A DNA stretch of 40,884 nt from a virus: IMG/VR virus record IMGVR_UViG_3300020057_000072, positions 1-40,884 of that record; one strand, written 5' to 3'. The notes under the pieces were generated by a model. That model searched no databases, had not been told where the DNA came from, and saw only the letters and a program-made list of their open reading frames with translations. Each line of letters begins with the position of its first letter. Position 1 is the stretch's first letter. Position numbers and translations under genes: made by a program. Positions 20,781 through 40,884 of this stretch are shown here, piece after piece.

Positions 20781-22015
20781 AGTCAAGTGACTTTGCCCGC
20801 AATCCCACCTCTTTTAAGGGTGGGTCAAGGGCAAACTTGACTATATTCATTTTTTAAGTTAAAATGCATTTTATGAGAACTTTCGAGTATAAACTCAGAC
20901 CAAACAAAACACAGGAGCAAGAGTTGGACAGGCTACTTTGGGAAACAAAGTGTCTTTACAATTCTGCTCTCGAACAGCTCATAAATCACTATAAAGAAAC
21001 AGGCAAGCATCTCAACCGCTTCACTCACGATAGGCTGTGGAACAAAGAAACTTGTCCACAGTTACCAGCGGTTTTGGTAGATACCACTATTCTCAGACTT
21101 CACCAATCATTTGCTAACTTCTTCAGAAGGTTGAAGACAGGGGGAAAGCCAGGTTTCCCAAGATTTAAGAGTATTCATAGGTGGAGTAGTTTTAGCTTTA
21201 GGGATTATAAAAGCGGTGGCCGTGTTGTTGAGGATAGGTTACATATAAACCCGAAGACAAAAGTTAAAATAATTCTGCATAGACCACTAGAAGGTACGCC
21301 CAAGTTCACCAGAGTAGTTAAACGGGTAGACGGATATTATGTTCAAGTGGTTTGCGAAATGCCAGAAATTAAAGAAAAAGAATTAGATATTAATAAAGCG
21401 GTAGGGCTTGATGTGGGACTTCGTTACTTTGTGGCAGACAGTAATGGCGAAAAACACAAAGCCCCAAAATTCTTCAGAAAATCAGAGTATAAACTAGCAA
21501 AACAACAGCGTTTTCTTGCTAAGAAACAAAAAGGGGGTGCAAACCGTGGAAAGGCAAGAAAGCTGGTCGCAAAAACACATTTAACCATAAGCCGTCAACG
21601 AAAAGACTTTATACACAAATTAGCGTTCAAGTATTCTAACGAGAACGACATTGTGTGTATGGAAAATCTCAATGTACAAGGCATGTTAAAAAATCACTGT
21701 CTCGCTAAAAGTATCAGTGATGCTTCGTGGACAATGTTTCAATCATTTGTATCGTACAAGGTGCAAAACCTCGGCAAACGATTGGTATTGGTCAACCCTG
21801 CATACACATCTCAAATCTGTTCAGAGTGTGGGGCGATTGTTAAAAAATCTCTTTCACAAAGAACTCATTTTTGTCCAGAGTGCTTGTATGTAGAAGACCG
21901 AGATGTCAACGCAGGGAAAAATATATTGCGTTTAGGGTTGGTTCAACCCTTTGGCCAGAATAGCTCATTGGAGCGTTTTATTACCCAAGAAGCCCACGGA
22001 TTTATTCGTGGGTAG
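20781..22015 (+). mobile_element. TnpB-only IS200/IS605-family element (IS1341-like)
   Basis: The left end is a three-tier hairpin: AGTCAAGT/ACTTGACT, TTTGCCC/GGGCAAA, CCCACC/GGTGGG (20781-20842). The right end hairpin is CCCACG/CGTGGG (21993-22012), inside the tnpB 3' end. GGTAG flanks the left side (20776-20780) and also ends the element (22011-22015). Removing one copy of the 1235-bp element restores an open NinG-like gene, so the borders are precise. No tnpA is present; mobility would need a transposase in trans. Confidence 0.8.
20864..22015 (+). CDS. tnpB: TnpB RNA-guided nuclease
   Basis: A 383-residue protein (a start at ATG 20873 would give MRTFEYKLRP). The RuvC triad is intact: Asp183 in GLDVGLRYF, Glu267 in MENLNVQG and Asp347 in DRDVNAGKNI. 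The zinc ribbon is intact: CSEC (319-322) and CPEC (337-340). The length is normal for the family. With an omega RNA read from the right end it should cut DNA next to a target-adjacent motif, favouring element retention. The 3' end encodes the right-end hairpin. Confidence 0.9.
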   Translation: MHFMRTFEYKLRPNKTQEQELDRLLWETKCLYNSALEQLINHYKETGKHLNRFTHDRLWNKETCPQLPAVLVDTTILRLHQSFANFFRRLKTGGKPGFPRFKSIHRWSSFSFRDYKSGGRVVEDRLHINPKTKVKIILHRPLEGTPKFTRVVKRVDGYYVQVVCEMPEIKEKELDINKAVGLDVGLRYFVADSNGEKHKAPKFFRKSEYKLAKQQRFLAKKQKGGANRGKARKLVAKTHLTISRQRKDFIHKLAFKYSNENDIVCMENLNVQGMLKNHCLAKSISDASWTMFQSFVSYKVQNLGKRLVLVNPAYTSQICSECGAIVKKSLSQRTHFCPECLYVEDRDVNAGKNILRLGLVQPFGQNSSLERFITQEAHGFIRG

Positions 22016-22431: not shown

Positions 22432-22461
22432 TTGACACGACATCACCCTATAGAGTATATT
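22432..22461 (+). promoter_or_regulatory. Promoter of the chaperonin cluster, leaderless type
   Basis: TTGACA (22432-22437), an 18-bp spacer and TATATT (22456-22461). The groES ATG is 8 nt later at 22470, so transcription should begin at or next to the start codon. The first bases TTGACACGACAT match the promoter at 18381, which suggests the same early timing. Confidence 0.65.
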
Positions 22462-22469
22462 AAATACGG

Positions 22470-22739
22470 ATGACACCAGCCAAGAATACAGTTATACTAA
22501 GAGCTACTAAGCTAAAAACCAAATCAGGACTGGAGTCGATAGAAACAGGCAAAAACGCTCCCGAAATCGGAGTCATAGTAAAGATAGGAACAGGGACTCC
22601 ACCAGTTAAAATCGCAGAAGGAGATACCATCGTGTACCGCAAGTACATGGAGAACAAAGTCTATATCCCAACCGAAGGGGAAGAATTGAACTTCATCGAC
22701 TTTAAAGATATAGTCGCAAACTTAGGAAAACAAAAATGA
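22470..22739 (+). CDS. groES: Co-chaperonin GroES
   Basis: An 89-residue protein with the GroES beta-barrel pattern: NTVILRATKLKTKSG, a mobile loop region (about 20-33, ESIETGKNAPEIG), GVIVKIGTG, AEGDTIVYRKYMENK and a final FIDFKDIVANL, the usual C-terminal strand and helix. It caps the GroEL ring and sets the folding chamber. GroEL is two genes downstream. The mobile loop is diverged, as expected for a protein matched to its own phage GroEL. Confidence 0.8.
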   Translation: MTPAKNTVILRATKLKTKSGLESIETGKNAPEIGVIVKIGTGTPPVKIAEGDTIVYRKYMENKVYIPTEGEELNFIDFKDIVANLGKQK

Positions 22740-22942
22740 ATAACGATACAAAATTAGAATACGTTCACAAACTACTGACAAAGGCATTTGAAACCTTGAT
22801 GGAAGAAAAGAAAGCCAAACCCTCTCGTGAAAACTCCGAAACCCTCACCTTACTGGAAACCGCAATGATGTGGAACAACAAAGACCGAGCCGTCAAAGGC
22901 GAATTAGAAAAATCCGACACTCATATCCAGCAACAGCAATGA
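22736..22942 (+). CDS. Acb2/Tad1-like cyclic-nucleotide sponge (anti-CBASS/Thoeris candidate)
   Basis: A 68-residue protein. An N-terminal helix (VHKLLTKAFETLMEEK) is followed by PSRENSETLTLLETAMMWNN. This is close to the hairpin motif of the Acb2/Tad1 group as I remember it (SRExSxxLTxLExAxMWxN). Those proteins bind cyclic di/trinucleotides or NAD-derived signals and so block CBASS or Thoeris defence. The gene overlaps groES by 4 nt (ATGA), placing anti-defence and chaperonins in one unit. A structural or binding test is lacking, so it remains a candidate. Confidence 0.55.
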   Translation: MNNDTKLEYVHKLLTKAFETLMEEKKAKPSRENSETLTLLETAMMWNNKDRAVKGELEKSDTHIQQQQ

Positions 22943-22945
22943 CGA

Positions 22946-23016
22946 TCCCGAATCGTCTAGCGGTAGGATAGCTGACTTTGAATCAGCAGAGTGAAGTTCG
23001 AATCTTTATTCGGGAA
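22946..23016 (+). tRNA. tRNA-Gln (anticodon TTG)
   Basis: The acceptor stem TCCCGAA/TTCGGGA is perfect. The D-arm is GTC/GAT around TAGCGGTAG. The anticodon stem GCTGA/TCAGC has the loop CTTTGAA (anticodon TTG). The T-arm is TGAAG/CTTTA with TTCGAAT. The discriminator is A and no CCA is encoded. The groEL ATG begins 6 nt after the discriminator base. It reads CAA, a common codon in this genome's late genes. Confidence 0.92.
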
Positions 23017-23022
23017 CAACAA

Positions 23023-24678
23023 ATGAAAAAAATAATATTCGGAAGCGAAGCTAGGCAAAAGTTATTACAAGGAGCAGTTATCGCTTATAGAGCCGTTTGT
23101 ACTACGCTCTCACCAAAAGGACGAAACGTCGGTATTACAAGGCAATGGGGAACACCAATAGCGGTTCATGATGGCGTTACAGTTATGAGAGAAGTAGAAG
23201 ACAGGGACGAGTTTGTAAATACAGGTATTCAGTTTATTAGGGAAGCAGCACAGAAGACAAATGAGGAGGCAGGCGATGGTACGACTACGGCAACCCTTCT
23301 GGCATACCACATTATAGACAAAGGAATGAAGCTCCTCGAAAAAGGAATAAACCCCATGATCCTCAGAAAGCAAATGGACGACGCAGTCCCAGCACTAAAG
23401 GAGCAACTCAAGAAAATCAGCAAATCAATCATGGGAACAGAAGACATCCAAAGAGTAGCATTCATATCTTCCGCCGATGAAGAAATAGGAAAAGTGGTAG
23501 CACAAGCCGTCGAAAAAGTAGGCGAACACGGACTGATAACCGTTGAAGAAGGCGGAGTCGAAATGGGAATCGACTACACCGAAGGAATGGAGTTTGACAA
23601 GGGATACGCAGCTCCACATTTTGTAACAAGCCCTCAGAGAATGGAAGCAATAATCGAAGAACCACTCGTCGCAGTTTTAGGAAAGAAAGTAACTCTTGTA
23701 AAAGAAATAATGCCCTTACTAGAAGTGATGGCAGCAATCAAAAAGGATATCTTAATAGTTGGAGAAGTTGAAGGCGACGCTTTGAAAACCGTCATCGTCA
23801 ACAAAATGAAAGGGAACATCAACATATTAGTAGTAACTCCACCAAGCTACGGTGACAGGAGAACATCCTCCCTTGAAGACATCGCACTCATAACAGGAGC
23901 AACAGTGGTATCAGAAGAACTCGGACTGGACATGGTACAGTTTACCAATCAGTTCGAAAAGAAATGGCTCGGACTTGCCAAGACAGTTGTCGCCGGACGC
24001 AACTCAACCGTCATTATAAAGATGGAGGAGAAAGACACCATCAACGAAGAATGGAAAAAAGATATATTGGAACGAAACAAGAAGGTAGCAGAACGCATCG
24101 AAAATTTGAAAGCCAATCTCGAAACCGAAACCTCAGTCTACGAGAAAGAGAAAATACAAGAACGCCTAGCAAAACTAACAACAGGCGTCGCCATTATAAA
24201 AGTCGGAGCGAAAACCGAAGCATCCATGCGTGAAAGATTAGAGAGAACCAAAGACGCAGTATCAGCAGCACGAGCAGCAGCCGAGGAAGGAATAGTACCC
24301 GGAGGCGGAGTCGCATTTCAACAGATGGCATCTATATTTATGGGAACGCCAAGTAAAAAAATGATGCTGAATGATGGCGAACAATTATTATATGACGTGT
24401 TACACGAACCGACACTCAAACTGCTCGATAATGCAGGAGAAGATGAAAAACAGAAAGCTCTCATCGTTGGAAAAATCAAACAAGCAGGTGGCGATTTTGG
24501 ATACAACGTAAACACAGGCAAGATGGAGGATTTAGTAAAAGCAGGTGTTATAGACCCAGCGAAAGTGATACGATTATCTGTAGAAAACGCAGTCGCTGTC
24601 GCCGGAACAATCTTATCAACAGATTGTTTGATAGTGGACGAACGTGAGCAAACTCAGACTCAAATGCAGGTAGTATAA
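23023..24678 (+). CDS. groEL: Chaperonin GroEL
   Basis: A 551-residue protein. ATG 23023 was chosen because an earlier TTG lies inside the tRNA. ATPase features are present: Asp50 in HDGVTV, DGTTT (85-89), the KDAVSAARAA segment with an Asp at the D398 position, and PGGGVAF near residue 426. The apical domain is recognisable (PPSYGDRRTSSLEDIA, like the usual FGDRR). The C-terminal Gly-Gly-Met repeats are absent, replaced by a Gln/Thr-rich tail. It folds proteins in ATP-driven double rings with GroES, probably capsid or other phage proteins. Confidence 0.95.
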   Translation: MKKIIFGSEARQKLLQGAVIAYRAVCTTLSPKGRNVGITRQWGTPIAVHDGVTVMREVEDRDEFVNTGIQFIREAAQKTNEEAGDGTTTATLLAYHIIDKGMKLLEKGINPMILRKQMDDAVPALKEQLKKISKSIMGTEDIQRVAFISSADEEIGKVVAQAVEKVGEHGLITVEEGGVEMGIDYTEGMEFDKGYAAPHFVTSPQRMEAIIEEPLVAVLGKKVTLVKEIMPLLEVMAAIKKDILIVGEVEGDALKTVIVNKMKGNINILVVTPPSYGDRRTSSLEDIALITGATVVSEELGLDMVQFTNQFEKKWLGLAKTVVAGRNSTVIIKMEEKDTINEEWKKDILERNKKVAERIENLKANLETETSVYEKEKIQERLAKLTTGVAIIKVGAKTEASMRERLERTKDAVSAARAAAEEGIVPGGGVAFQQMASIFMGTPSKKMMLNDGEQLLYDVLHEPTLKLLDNAGEDEKQKALIVGKIKQAGGDFGYNVNTGKMEDLVKAGVIDPAKVIRLSVENAVAVAGTILSTDCLIVDEREQTQTQMQVV

Positions 24679-30877: not shown

Positions 30878-30952
30878 GCAAGATTAGTGTAACGGCAACT
30901 CAACACGATTCACATCCGTGGATAGTTTCAGGTTCGACTCCTGAATCTTGCT
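30878..30952 (+). tRNA. tRNA, anticodon read as CAC (Val)
   Basis: The acceptor stem GCAAGAT/ATCTTGC and the T-arm TCAGG/CCTGA with TTCGACT are perfect. The D-stem has one mismatch. The anticodon stem CACGA/CCGTG has one A/C mismatch at the loop side, leaving TTCACAT and anticodon CAC. The mismatches make the identity less sure. The discriminator is T and no CCA is encoded. The next gene starts exactly 6 nt after it, as with tRNA-Gln and groEL. Confidence 0.75.
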
Positions 30953-30958
30953 CAAAAT

Positions 30959-31232: not shown

Positions 31233-32867
31233 ATGGACTTACAAACCGCCCAGACATTCAACGCAGCAGCTTTTGTGTTACAAAACAAAATCGTAAATGA
31301 AAACGGCATCCCGATCACCTTCAAAAGACACAAGTTTCTCGTCGACTTCTACATGGATAACAGTCCACGACTCGTGGCAAAGAAATGCGGACAGATCGGC
31401 TTCTCAACAGCAGCCATTATCAGGAGCTTCCATCTTGCGAACTACGTCGGGGCAAACGTCATTTATACACTCCCGTCGAAACCGATTATTAAAGACTTCG
31501 TCACGCCGAAAGTAAACCCACTAATATCAAGCAATCCCATCTTTGGCGAAATGGTAGGCGACGTCGACTCAACAGGACTGAAAAAGATAGGCGACAGATT
31601 CGTATATTTTAGGTCAAGCTGGGACGAGGCGTCAGGTATCTCTATTTCAGCTCACATACTAATAAACGACGAGCTAGACCGAAGCAATCAGAAAGCAGTA
31701 AGGACTTACAAGACCAGACTAGACGCCGCAGCATTAGACCGCCCCGATTTAGGATGGTGGTGGAAGTTTTCAAATCCATCAATCCCTGGATACGGCGTTG
31801 ATGAAGACTGGCAGATAAGCGACCAAAAACACTGGATGATCAAATGCGAACACTGCAACTTCTGGCAATACCTAAAGTTTCCAGAAAACATAAACTTCAA
31901 AACCGCAGAATACGTCTGCCAGAAATGCGAGAGGCACATAAGCGATGACACACGGATAGACGGCAAGTGGGTAAAGAAATATCTGGGACGAAACATCTCA
32001 GGATACTGGATCAACCAACTAATGGCAGCATGGATACCAGCAAGCAAGATTATAGAAGACTCACAAGGCGACCAAAGCGTCTTCTACAACTTTACACTAG
32101 GAGAAGCTCACCTAAATAAAGACTTTGTAGTAACCAGAGAAAGCATAGTCAAATGCCTCTACCCCACCATAAATCCCCGAACGGACGTGGCAATAGGAGT
32201 AGATAACGGCATAGTAAAACACTACGTCGTAGGAAATAAATACGGAATCTTCATGATAGGACAAACCGAAGACTGGCAGTTTATAGAAAACCTCAGAAAC
32301 AGATTTGACGCAGTAATGGTCATAGACGCCAACCCATACCCAACACCAGCAAAGAAGCTCGTAGAAAAATACAGAGGAAAGGTATTCATGCATTACTACG
32401 AAGAAGACAGGAAGCAAGTAGGCATTATAAGATTCGGCGAAACACAAAACGACTACGGAATAGTAAAGACCGACAGAACGAAGATAATAGACGCAGTAGT
32501 AGCAGACATAAACGCCCAAGACTTACTGTTCAACTTCTCACTAACAGACCTCGAAAACCTCCAATATCCACAACACTGGGAAAACATGTACCGAAGCGTC
32601 GCCGAATCAGAGAAGGGTATAAAAAAAGCCGTCTGGATAACGCCGGAAGGCAGACCCGACCATTACGCTCACGCAACAGTCTTAATGAGAGCAGCACAAA
32701 CAAAGGTACTAACCTCAGCAGGCGTCGTAAAACCAAACGCACCCGGCAACCGCTACCCAGATACTATTATAGTAAACTCAGATAACACGGCAGCACCGCC
32801 GATATCCCTCGATCAAATAAAAGAATCCATTCAAAGACCCAAGAGTAAAGGCTGGGAGTACAGATGA
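31233..32867 (+). CDS. terL: Terminase large subunit (zinc-finger GpA-like)
   Basis: A 544-residue protein. The ATPase part has the Q/S-type Walker A CGQIGFSTA (about 52-60) and Walker B HILINDELD (141-149). A four-cysteine finger lies at C205, C208, C229 and C232. The nuclease domain has Asp324 (AIGVDNG), Asp365 (VMVIDANP) and a DHYAHA motif near the end. It packages DNA into the prohead through the portal and cuts it. The finger and motifs resemble the lambda GpA-type group. Confidence 0.85.
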   Translation: MDLQTAQTFNAAAFVLQNKIVNENGIPITFKRHKFLVDFYMDNSPRLVAKKCGQIGFSTAAIIRSFHLANYVGANVIYTLPSKPIIKDFVTPKVNPLISSNPIFGEMVGDVDSTGLKKIGDRFVYFRSSWDEASGISISAHILINDELDRSNQKAVRTYKTRLDAAALDRPDLGWWWKFSNPSIPGYGVDEDWQISDQKHWMIKCEHCNFWQYLKFPENINFKTAEYVCQKCERHISDDTRIDGKWVKKYLGRNISGYWINQLMAAWIPASKIIEDSQGDQSVFYNFTLGEAHLNKDFVVTRESIVKCLYPTINPRTDVAIGVDNGIVKHYVVGNKYGIFMIGQTEDWQFIENLRNRFDAVMVIDANPYPTPAKKLVEKYRGKVFMHYYEEDRKQVGIIRFGETQNDYGIVKTDRTKIIDAVVADINAQDLLFNFSLTDLENLQYPQHWENMYRSVAESEKGIKKAVWITPEGRPDHYAHATVLMRAAQTKVLTSAGVVKPNAPGNRYPDTIIVNSDNTAAPPISLDQIKESIQRPKSKGWEYR

Positions 32868-35870: not shown

Positions 35871-36938
35871 ATGACATTTTCAAACAGAGTAACATCAATA
35901 ACCCAAGACGTAATCCTTCCAAAGAACGTCGACAACTTCTTAGTAGATAACTTCGCAACCTTCCGTTTCATGGGAACAGGAGAAGCATGGGAAGGAACAA
36001 CCATCAAACAGCCAATCAAAATCTCCAAGAACACACAAGGACGCTCATTCTCAGGACTTGACGCTCACAACACAGGAACTGTCGACACAAGAGTTACTCT
36101 TGAGTACGATTTGAGAGCATACAACATTCCAATCGCTATCCCCGGCTTAGACAAAGTAGTAAACCGAGGCGAAGCAGCAATCCTCAACCTTATTAAACAG
36201 GAAACAGCATCAACCTTCATGGACGCAATGGACGACATCGGATCAATGTTCTACCTTGATGGAACAGGAAACGGAAGCAAAGACTTCTTAGGTCTTGACG
36301 CATTAGCAGACGACGGAACATCAGCAGCAACTATCGGCGGACTTTCAAGAACAACCTATTCAACTCTTAACGGAACAAGAACAGCATCATCAGGGACAGT
36401 AACTCTCTTAAAAATAGCATCACTTACAAGTGCAGTAGCAGGCGGATCAGCATCCAGACAGCAACCAACTATCTATATAACTGACGAAACCACATGGGAT
36501 CTTTGCGAAAAGTTAATGATCTCCTCAATCGTACAAGCAAACTACGACGCAAACGGTTATCCAAAAGTTACCAGAAAATCCAGAGGCGTAATGAGCGGAG
36601 CAACACTTGGCGGATCATACGGATTCGTTTCACTAATACACCGTGGAATCCCAATCGTCAAAGACGAAAAAGCAACAGTCGGAACGCTGTGGGCATTAAA
36701 CGAAAACTACCTACAATGGTACGGAGCACAGTCTGACGATTTGAAATCCATCTCTCTCGGAAACGACGTTGACTCAACCTACAACGAAGCACCAACCAGC
36801 GATAGTGGTGTGCAATGGAGCGGATGGAAAGACTCTTTCAATCAGTTCGGCGAAGTGGCGTACTTATATGTACTAGGAAACTTGACAACGAGTCAGCCAA
36901 GAAGACATGGGAGGTTAACAGGCATCACCACTGCCTAA
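35871..36938 (+). CDS. Major capsid protein (HK97 fold)
   Basis: A 355-residue protein. It has an N-terminal helix region, a P-domain-like stretch (WEGTTIKQPIKISKNTQG, later YDLRAYNIPIAIPGLD), a spine helix (AAILNLIKQETASTFMDAMD) and a beta-rich A-domain ending GRLTGITTA. It matches the podovirus/HK97 capsid pattern of the group with TxxRQPIK-type N-arms. No separate delta-domain or protease gene was found. It stands behind its own promoter-terminator leader. Confidence 0.8.
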   Translation: MTFSNRVTSITQDVILPKNVDNFLVDNFATFRFMGTGEAWEGTTIKQPIKISKNTQGRSFSGLDAHNTGTVDTRVTLEYDLRAYNIPIAIPGLDKVVNRGEAAILNLIKQETASTFMDAMDDIGSMFYLDGTGNGSKDFLGLDALADDGTSAATIGGLSRTTYSTLNGTRTASSGTVTLLKIASLTSAVAGGSASRQQPTIYITDETTWDLCEKLMISSIVQANYDANGYPKVTRKSRGVMSGATLGGSYGFVSLIHRGIPIVKDEKATVGTLWALNENYLQWYGAQSDDLKSISLGNDVDSTYNEAPTSDSGVQWSGWKDSFNQFGEVAYLYVLGNLTTSQPRRHGRLTGITTA

Positions 36939-38379: not shown

Positions 38380-39210
38380 ATGGATGCAGTAACACTGACC
38401 CAACAGCAACAGCAAACAGCCTCTATTCAAGGTGAATCATTCCTCGCAGAGAAGGAGAAGGAGAAGGTTAGTGCCGAACTACAGCATCTCCAAATAGCCA
38501 GAGAGATCGAGTTCAAAGAATACAACGCTCAGAAGGCAGTCCTAACAAAAGCCGTCGAAGTTCTGAAGGTGGAGAAAGTCCAGCTTGAGGCAGACGTAAA
38601 GGTAGCCGGGGAAAAATACGACGGGATTATAAGGTCGATAAATGAATACGGAGAAAATGAGGTAGAGAAAGCCAAGAACGCAGTAACATCTATTTACTTA
38701 ACAGCTCAAATATTACAGCGTGAGTGGAAAGACAAAGTAATGAAGGCGGACGTCAAGGCAGAGGAGCTGGAGAAAAGGGAGCAGGAACTAAATGAACTAA
38801 ATATCGCAGTCGAACAACAGCGAGTAGAGAATGAGGTAGAGGAAAATCTACTCAAGAAAAGAGAGTACCAATTGACCTTAAAACAGGAAATAGTGAAAAA
38901 GACCGTTGCACAGTTAGAAGAAAAGCGTGATACTTTAATAAGTGAGGTAGAAACGAACCAAGCAAAGCTGCGTGGAGTCAGGATAACCATAAAGATCCAA
39001 GAAGACACGGCAGCAAAAACAGTCGCCGACGCAGAAATAAAACTGCGTGAAGCGAACATAAAAATGGCAGAAACAAAAGCACTAGAAGAGAAAAACAATG
39101 AAACAAGTAAAAATCTTGCTATTGAAAAGCTACAGCTGGATGACTATGCGGCTACGATTCGCAGAGCCTATCGTGAAACTATGGACAGAGGAGGTAAAAT
39201 AGATGGCTAG
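38380..39210 (+). CDS. Long coiled-coil protein
   Basis: A 276-residue protein, almost entirely coiled coil (residues about 20-255; for example ELEKREQELNELNIAVEQQR), charged and Cys-free. It overlaps the next gene by 8 nt. It may act as a scaffold, tape or fibre stalk. Being close to the capsid gene, it is as good a scaffold candidate as the acidic protein at 1510. Confidence 0.65.
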   Translation: MDAVTLTQQQQQTASIQGESFLAEKEKEKVSAELQHLQIAREIEFKEYNAQKAVLTKAVEVLKVEKVQLEADVKVAGEKYDGIIRSINEYGENEVEKAKNAVTSIYLTAQILQREWKDKVMKADVKAEELEKREQELNELNIAVEQQRVENEVEENLLKKREYQLTLKQEIVKKTVAQLEEKRDTLISEVETNQAKLRGVRITIKIQEDTAAKTVADAEIKLREANIKMAETKALEEKNNETSKNLAIEKLQLDDYAATIRRAYRETMDRGGKIDG

Positions 39211-40249
39211 TACAGCCGTACCATTTGACCCAAACTACCGTGTTGTCATGGCAGCGAAAGTGCAAGGAACGACATCGGATGTCGCTCCCCTACTTGTTGA
39301 CTCAGTGACAGGACGTCTTCTAGTTGACGTTAGTATTTCAGGAGCAGCATTACAAGACGGCGTAGACACAGCAATAAAAGCAACCATCTTCGACTACACA
39401 AACTCAAATCCACTAGCCGTAGTATTACGAGATACAAATGGCGACTATGTCTCAGTTGGAGGCGGAACACAATATGATGAAGACACCGTATCAACAGCAG
39501 CCGACAAAATAACAATGGCAGGAGTTGTCAGACGAGATACCGCCTCAACTCTCGCAGGAACAGACGGTGACAGAACCCAGCTAATAGTAGACGCAAACGG
39601 ACTCCTACACATAAATGTAGGTGTTTCAGTATTGCCAACAGGAGCATCAACCGCAGCCCATCAAGTAACACAAAACGGATATCTTGACGGTATAGAAGGA
39701 CTCCTATCAACTGAAAACACCAACTCCGCAGCCATAGCAGCCTCCGCCTCAGTCCTTGACGATTGGGATGAGTCAGACAGGGCAAAGGTAAATACCATCG
39801 TCGGGCAAGCAGGAGTAGCAGCAGGAGCAGGAGCAGTAGGAGTAACCGTACAAAGAATGACTCTCGCCTCAGACGATCCAGCTGTAACACGAATAGAAGC
39901 GAATGTGGACTCCTCAACCATGTGGGCGGATGGAGTAGAGGTAACGGTAAAAAGAGCAATCGTTGACGCAGCAACCAGTGGAAATAATACGCTTTTAGCC
40001 TCCGTCTCCTCAAAAAAGATTAGGGTTCTCTCTCTTTATTTAGTATCAGCCGGAACAGTAAACGTACGCTTTGAATCAGGAGCAGACGGAACAGCACTCT
40101 CAGGACAGATGAACCTCATAGCAAACTCAGGATTCACTCTCCCCTACAACCCGAGGGGATGGTTTGAAACAGCAGCAACAACCCTTCTCAACCTTGAACT
40201 GTCAGCAGCAATATCAGTTGATGGAGGTTTCACCTACATCGAGGTATAA
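39203..40249 (+). CDS. Virion appendage protein
   Basis: A 348-residue protein with repeated short beta units (DTVSTAADKITMAGVVRRD, then GDRTQLIVDANGLLHINVG), a helical hinge (DDWDESDRAKVN) and a C-terminal beta domain (about 245-348). I associate this pattern with metagenomic phage structural proteins of unknown role. It probably forms a base or fibre part, upstream of the ConA/fibronectin-like gene. Confidence 0.55.
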   Translation: MASTAVPFDPNYRVVMAAKVQGTTSDVAPLLVDSVTGRLLVDVSISGAALQDGVDTAIKATIFDYTNSNPLAVVLRDTNGDYVSVGGGTQYDEDTVSTAADKITMAGVVRRDTASTLAGTDGDRTQLIVDANGLLHINVGVSVLPTGASTAAHQVTQNGYLDGIEGLLSTENTNSAAIAASASVLDDWDESDRAKVNTIVGQAGVAAGAGAVGVTVQRMTLASDDPAVTRIEANVDSSTMWADGVEVTVKRAIVDAATSGNNTLLASVSSKKIRVLSLYLVSAGTVNVRFESGADGTALSGQMNLIANSGFTLPYNPRGWFETAATTLLNLELSAAISVDGGFTYIEV

Positions 40250-40252
40250 ATT

Positions 40253-40340
40253 ATGGCAAATATAATTATTTTTAAAGCAGGAGGGATTTAATTTTATGGC
40301 AGATCTAAAAATTTCAGCATTAACAGTATCAAACGTATAA
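40253..40340 (+). pseudogene. Two truncated fibre-gene starts
   Basis: ATG 40253 gives 12 residues (MANIIIFKAGGI) and ATG 40296, behind an AGGAGG site, gives 14 residues (MADLKISALTVSNV). The second is the familiar opening of many phage fibre proteins (MADLKISxLT) but stops at once. They are probably remnants of replaced fibre genes, or short translated leaders. Confidence 0.45.
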
Positions 40341-40341
40341 T

Positions 40342-40884
40342 ATGGCAGCACCAACAGTAGCTCTTAATACTCCAGCAGATGCAGCAACAGGTGTTTCTAC
40401 TACTCCAGCCTTACTCTTTACAGGAACAGATGCAGAGAGTAATGAGATTGAATATAACGTACAGGTAGATACGGTAAACACTTTTGATAGCCAAGTTGCT
40501 ACTCTTGATAGTTACAGCGAATCTAATCGAGGCTGGCAAAACGCTCTGCAAAGTGCTGGCCTCACACGTGCTGGGCAATCATTTACGGGGAATGGTAATA
40601 AAGTTTCTTCTGCCAAGTTTTATTTGCAAAAAATTGGAAGCCCCACGGGAAACATAGTTTCTACTATATATGCACACACTGGGACTTATGGTGGTGGCGG
40701 AACAGCCACAGGATCTGCCTTGGCTACATCAAGTAACGTTGACGTTACTACCATAGGTGGATCTTGGAGTTTAATAACCTTTACTTTTACAACTCCATAT
40801 ACAGTGGATAATGGCACTAGGTACTGTATCGTAATTGAGTATAGTGGAGGAGATGCAAGTAATAAAATTGAGTATGGATTCGAC
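40342..40884 (+). CDS. ConA/fibronectin-like appendage protein, 3' truncated by window end
   Basis: 181 codons without a stop. It begins APTVALNTPADAATGVSTTP, a fibronectin-like strand set, then EIEYNVQVDTVNTFD. A jelly-roll-like domain with repeated strands follows (KFYLQKIGSP, then TPYTVDNGTRYCIVIEY). The usual continuation of the first part (VQAG..YYWRV) is what is found at bases 2-286, so the domain order suggests a jelly roll inserted in a fibronectin-like unit. Probably a receptor- or glycan-binding fibre. Confidence 0.6.
   Translation, partial: MAAPTVALNTPADAATGVSTTPALLFTGTDAESNEIEYNVQVDTVNTFDSQVATLDSYSESNRGWQNALQSAGLTRAGQSFTGNGNKVSSAKFYLQKIGSPTGNIVSTIYAHTGTYGGGGTATGSALATSSNVDVTTIGGSWSLITFTFTTPYTVDNGTRYCIVIEYSGGDASNKIEYGFD

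Follow-up and report, generated by a model that had tools for sequence, protein, structure and literature searches.

A putative dedicated GroES-GroEL chaperonin with altered ring-ring contact positions in a lineage of small phages

We analyzed the IMG/VR record IMGVR_UViG_3300020057_000072 of an uncultivated phage over its full length of 40,884 nt (hereafter the window; all coordinates are positions in this record). A cluster on the + strand comprises, in order, a groES gene, a 68-aa open reading frame, a tRNA-Gln gene and a groEL gene. Elsewhere, the record carries genes for a terminase large subunit (31233..32867, + strand; PHROG 675, 309.6 bits), which served as the GroEL-independent marker for finding relatives, and for a major head protein of 355 aa (35871..36938, + strand; PHROG 9953, 142.6 bits), as well as a tail fibre, an endolysin, a DnaB-like primase-helicase and O-like replication genes. 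No end repeat was found in the 40,884-base virus record. A contig ~99% identical to the window (L008) extends from window position 39.3 kb over a divergent junction to position 0.55 kb and joins both ends, so we take the record to be near-complete and circular or permuted. In positions 39300-40884 joined to 1-553, past the gene at 39203-40249, this otherwise near-identical contig diverges from the window, and the relative of that gene is shorter and only partly similar, suggesting that the locus is variable and perhaps linked to host range. A TnpB-type RNA-guided endonuclease gene was detected at 20864-22015 (NF040570, 283 bits), adjoining a NinG-like gene and preceding the chaperonin genes, and ARAGORN reported a tRNA-Val (CAC) at 30878-30953 that scores below the Rfam tRNA gathering score. 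Searches for the host returned terminase matches in MAGs with just 31-40% identity, scattered over Ignavibacteriae, Bacillota and Nanoarchaeota; TnpB relatives were also scattered and indicated no host, and the tRNA-Gln had no phage match.

The groES gene (Cpn10; 22470..22739, + strand) encodes 89 aa and matches PF00166 with 36.2 bits (cut-off 21.1). We built an AlphaFold model of the protein (pLDDT 85.5) and searched it with Foldseek, which matched solved Cpn10/GroES structures, including 1g31 (best match 5.3e-6). The profile match and the beta-barrel fold with a mobile loop (loop pLDDT 62-74) place the protein in the Cpn10 family. In the alignment, the mobile loop corresponds to residues ~13-30 and has KSGLESIE at the place of the bacterial GGIVLxx, with L-E-S where E. 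coli has the triad I-V-L; IVV, IEV, LVV, LQL and other triads occur among relatives. The L-E-S triad could weaken binding to GroEL. The window protein has a short roof segment, as do most, not all, members of the clade defined below. We considered loss of the roof hairpin as a clade-specific gp31-like adaptation and dropped this reading, since the roof is longer in some members and a short one also occurs in some GroES proteins of Bacteroidota.

A sigma-70-like site (TTGACA-18-TATATT; 22432..22461, + strand), identified as a consensus match only (11/12), lies 8 bases before the groES ATG; the window contains 4 such sites, against 0-2 in simulated sequence. If this site is used, the groES start would be leaderless. 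The groES and groEL mRNAs might both be leaderless, the latter after tRNA processing, as the groEL ATG starts 5 bases after the end of the tRNA-Gln. Shine-Dalgarno-like motifs were seen for only 9 of the 39 genes examined in the window.

Between the two chaperonin genes, the first-pass annotation of this DNA had proposed an anti-defence gene related to Acb2/Tad1 and a tRNA-Gln. The tRNA-Gln, with anticodon TTG, was recovered (22946..23017, + strand; ARAGORN; Rfam RF00005, 57.4 bits), and the proposed identity of the 68-aa open reading frame (22736..22942, + strand), which overlaps the groES stop codon, is not supported at the family threshold. Its score of 22.5 bits (21.5 on a second scoring) is below the gathering cut-off of 27 for the Acb2/Tad1 hairpin model PF24729. 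Structure prediction (run without alignment, pLDDT 84) gave two long helices forming a plain hairpin, and a Foldseek search of this model for an Acb2/Tad1 fold returned generic helix pairs only, with E of at least 2. The only sequence match to Tad1 had an E of 1, NCBIfam gave no match, and no relative of the reading frame was found in the viral contigs, the phage's own relatives included. We therefore list it as a lead only for an Acb2/Tad1-type gene.

The groEL gene (group I Cpn60, 551 aa; 23023..24678, + strand) was assigned using profile matches, residue mapping and a tree. The protein scores 157 bits with PF00118 (cut-off 34), 406 bits with PHROG 5725 ("chaperonin groEL") and 520 bits with NF000592 (cut-off 397), and these full-length Cpn60/GroEL model matches place it among the group I chaperonins; it stays below the cut-off of the housekeeping GroEL equivalog TIGR02348 (510.9 vs 582.1 bits). 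The open reading frame opens at TTG 22978, which is inside the tRNA-Gln, so translation most likely starts at ATG 23023; of the gene extent implied in the first-pass annotation, the end at 24678 is right and the start at 22978 needs to be moved. Residue mapping found the ATP-site residues D52, D87, GDGTTT, D398, GGG and D495 intact, and together with the profile matches this bears out the earlier description of a complete GroES-GroEL pair with intact ATPase residues in a ~41-kb phage. Over 15 clade members, the 17 ATP-site positions are retained at 95%, vs 55% for the full set of positions with near-invariance in the bacteria sampled. Apical positions involved in GroES and client binding are mostly hydrophobic in the window (Y199, F204, M234, L237, L259, I263 and V264), with the exception of H203. 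The C-terminal GGM tail is absent (the window protein ends in REQTQTQMQVV); it was found in 0/15 clade GroELs and 2/17 other phage GroELs. Loss of this tail and divergence of the GroES mobile loop had both been noted before, correctly, and taken to suggest adaptation to phage clients or to a host whose chaperonin is weak or missing; since the tail is missing clade-wide and commonly in other phage GroELs, its loss is no pointer to the clients of this particular phage.

To find relatives, we scanned viral contigs for GroEL and, separately, for terminase. Using a terminase profile whose three source sequences all came from groEL carriers, we found both groEL and groES in 10/10 terminase relatives of at least 36 kb (window included); the terminase relatives that lack the two genes are all fragments no longer than 24 kb. 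In one relative (G001) groEL runs over the contig ends, as expected for a circular genome, and in another (G015) groES is located 10 kb away from groEL. Mean identity over 14 members is 53% for GroEL, 37% for GroES and 59% for terminase. GroEL distances follow terminase distances across these members (r 0.81), which argues that groEL was inherited with the phage core, and the presence of the pair in every near-complete relative found indicates, from gene content, that it belongs to the phage core and did not stray in from a host. In the tree, the GroELs of the relatives form one clade (support 100/99) apart from the sampled bacterial GroELs, and support stays at 100 after removing long branches; the neighbours of the clade are two GroELs from Manatee Spring phages with complete genomes of 39 and 43 kb. 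A phage-specific clade with co-evolving partners had been predicted in the first-pass annotation: the clade was recovered, and co-evolution of GroES and GroEL beyond shared ancestry did not reach significance (partial Mantel r 0.21, p 0.14). We also found a 39.8-kb contig in the MAG of an uncultured bacterium (CAIJKW010000051.1; L061/L090) whose terminase is related (37%) and whose phage-like GroEL (36%) groups with phage GroELs; this contig is probably viral and was sorted into a bacterial bin.

The strongest new observation, made on aligned sequences, is that the ring-ring contact positions are mostly lost while the ATP site is kept. Inter-ring positions 105, 109, 452, 461, 463 and 464 are 78-100% invariant in 36 bacterial sequences, which represent E. 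coli, Bacteroidota and Bacillota only. The clade retains 19% of them on average, whereas retention at comparable equatorial positions is 56%. The permutation p of 0.017 is modest and was obtained for surface positions that drift easily and with gaps in the 461-464 loop, where clade GroELs have extra residues. Double-ring contact residues are lost or variable across the clade, and the window GroEL departs from the double-ring set, with K105 kept and the changes A109K, R452L, E461D, S463K and V464Q (alignment gapped at 461-464). The quadruple mutant SR1 (R452E/E461A/S463A/V464A) turns GroEL single-ring (PMC5653362). All four SR1 sites are among the inter-ring positions mostly lost in the clade; the natural substitutions differ from those of SR1, so single-ring behaviour is something that we infer. 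That the lost canonical contacts reflect a single-ring or loosely paired machine is a real possibility, if short of an even chance.

The reading that we consider probable is a functional group I chaperonin dedicated to this phage, a folding chamber for phage proteins, most likely those of the virion, that is capped by the phage's own GroES. The conserved ATPase, the conserved binding groove and the lid gene that is always present argue for a true folding chamber with the phage GroES as its cap. GroEL subunits would assemble into a heptameric, ATP-driven ring, and the phage GroES would bind this ring by its mobile loop and cap it. Phage proteins would then fold inside the chamber, the major head protein and further components of the virion being the most likely ones, thereby making virion assembly independent of the host GroEL and GroES. 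That the genes are conserved along with the structural core suggests clients among the virion proteins, of which the major head protein is the most likely one; at 355 aa it would fit the GroEL cage. The L-E-S triad in the GroES mobile loop, the separated genes of G015 and the derivation of the terminase profile from groEL carriers count against this reading.

The pair could have been acquired recently from a host or be the product of a chimera in the assembly, and bacterial groES-groEL pairs do have the same gene order. We regard this as extremely improbable, and reject it for the sampled phyla: the best identity to a bacterial GroEL was at most 45% (80 Bacteroidota-group and 21 Bacillota genomes), vs 51-57% to the GroELs of other phages with matching terminases, the GroELs fall in a single phage clade, and the sister contig L008 joins the window ends. 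Near identity to the groESL of one bacterium, the sign of contamination named in the first-pass annotation, was thus absent from the ~100 bacterial genomes sampled.

Another possibility is that the chaperonin supports the stressed infected cell in the manner of an auxiliary metabolic gene, with no dedicated phage client. GroEL is a general chaperone, and proposals for the role of phage chaperonins include host range and stress, which would fit; however, groEL is universal in the lineage and tracks its structural core, as its correlation with terminase indicates, which fits virion assembly better and makes a pure support role unlikely. The phage GroES could also act as a lid for the host GroEL, with the phage GroEL serving as a holdase or entering host rings as a subunit. 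Reliance on the host GroEL is common among phages, many of which have a GroES gene only (PMC7185714), and T4 does so with gp31, a Cpn10 fold without the roof hairpin (PMC6318259) that was among the Foldseek matches (1g31) and resembles the window GroES in this respect. This phage differs in encoding GroEL beside GroES; groEL is kept as strictly as groES (10/10) with its ATP site intact, and the short roof is shared with Bacteroidota GroES proteins and not universal in the clade, so we judge a lid for host rings to be improbable. The dedicated phage chaperonin is the reading that we retain.

Phage GroEL genes had been described in the first-pass annotation as known mainly from giant phages, making a pair unusual at ~41 kb, which is outdated. 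Manatee Spring phage cthkR962 (MW202566.1; 38,956 bp, complete, circular) also has a small genome, in which GenBank annotates neighbouring genes as mhsp60 and groeL just upstream of terminase, and Cellulophaga phage phi38:1 and the Flavobacterium elemo phages, isolates of 60-73 kb, carry both genes. The cthkR962 GroEL is the sister to this clade (100/98), but it is ~37% identical to that of the window and on a long branch, and the GroES-like protein of cthkR962 was missed by the profile of this clade, with a marginal match only (E 0.08). In phage phi38:1, as in the window, a small gene separates cpn10 from groEL, whereas its GroEL and those of the elemo phages show 30-32% identity and are located elsewhere in the tree. 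A survey of viral chaperonins in virioplankton was reportedly carried out by Marine et al. in 2017 (ISME J).

GroEL is carried by Bacteroidota phages and marine metagenomic viruses (PMC5332604, PMC11590407), and a 42.7-kb siphovirus carries GroES (PMC4294664). T4-type phages carry the lid only, while the chaperonins of EL, OBP and AR9 are lid-free; those of OBP and AR9 are single-ring, and the EL complex comes apart into single rings with ATP (PMC7185714, PMC9598537). These giant-phage chaperonins resemble that of the window as phage GroEL-like rings, which for the window are predicted. They differ in working without a co-chaperonin, and the EL protein is ~25% similar to GroEL; the window lineage always keeps groES, which none of the relatives of 36 kb or more lacks, and is therefore separate from the class of co-chaperonin-independent giant-phage chaperonins. 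Only tentatively, and as a rather unlikely combination, do we propose that the core of this lineage of ~37-46 kb phages includes a naturally single-ring GroEL that still works with a dedicated GroES and folds the capsid protein of the phage, a compact folding machine independent of the host and different from both the bacterial GroEL and the lid-less giant-phage chaperonins. Phage chaperonins were already known; this clade, its fixed pairing and its altered ring-ring contact surface look new. The complete GroES-GroEL module takes up ~2 kb, or 5% of the genome, and can thus be obligatory even in a small phage, which counters the view that such genes belong to giant phages only. If the ring interface is truly lost, the clade would provide a natural family of GroES-dependent single rings for testing the need for two rings in the folding cycle, which has long been debated.

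In one relative, an 82-aa gene is located between groES and groEL (L003:9741-9989, also L004:2313-2561). About 31 of its residues (IGGLSRTTYNKLKDKQASGGTLSLKKI) are 47-68% identical to a segment of the family's major head protein (best E 1e-8). This gene, seen in one lineage only, may encode a head-protein-derived peptide within the chaperonin operon, hinting at a client.
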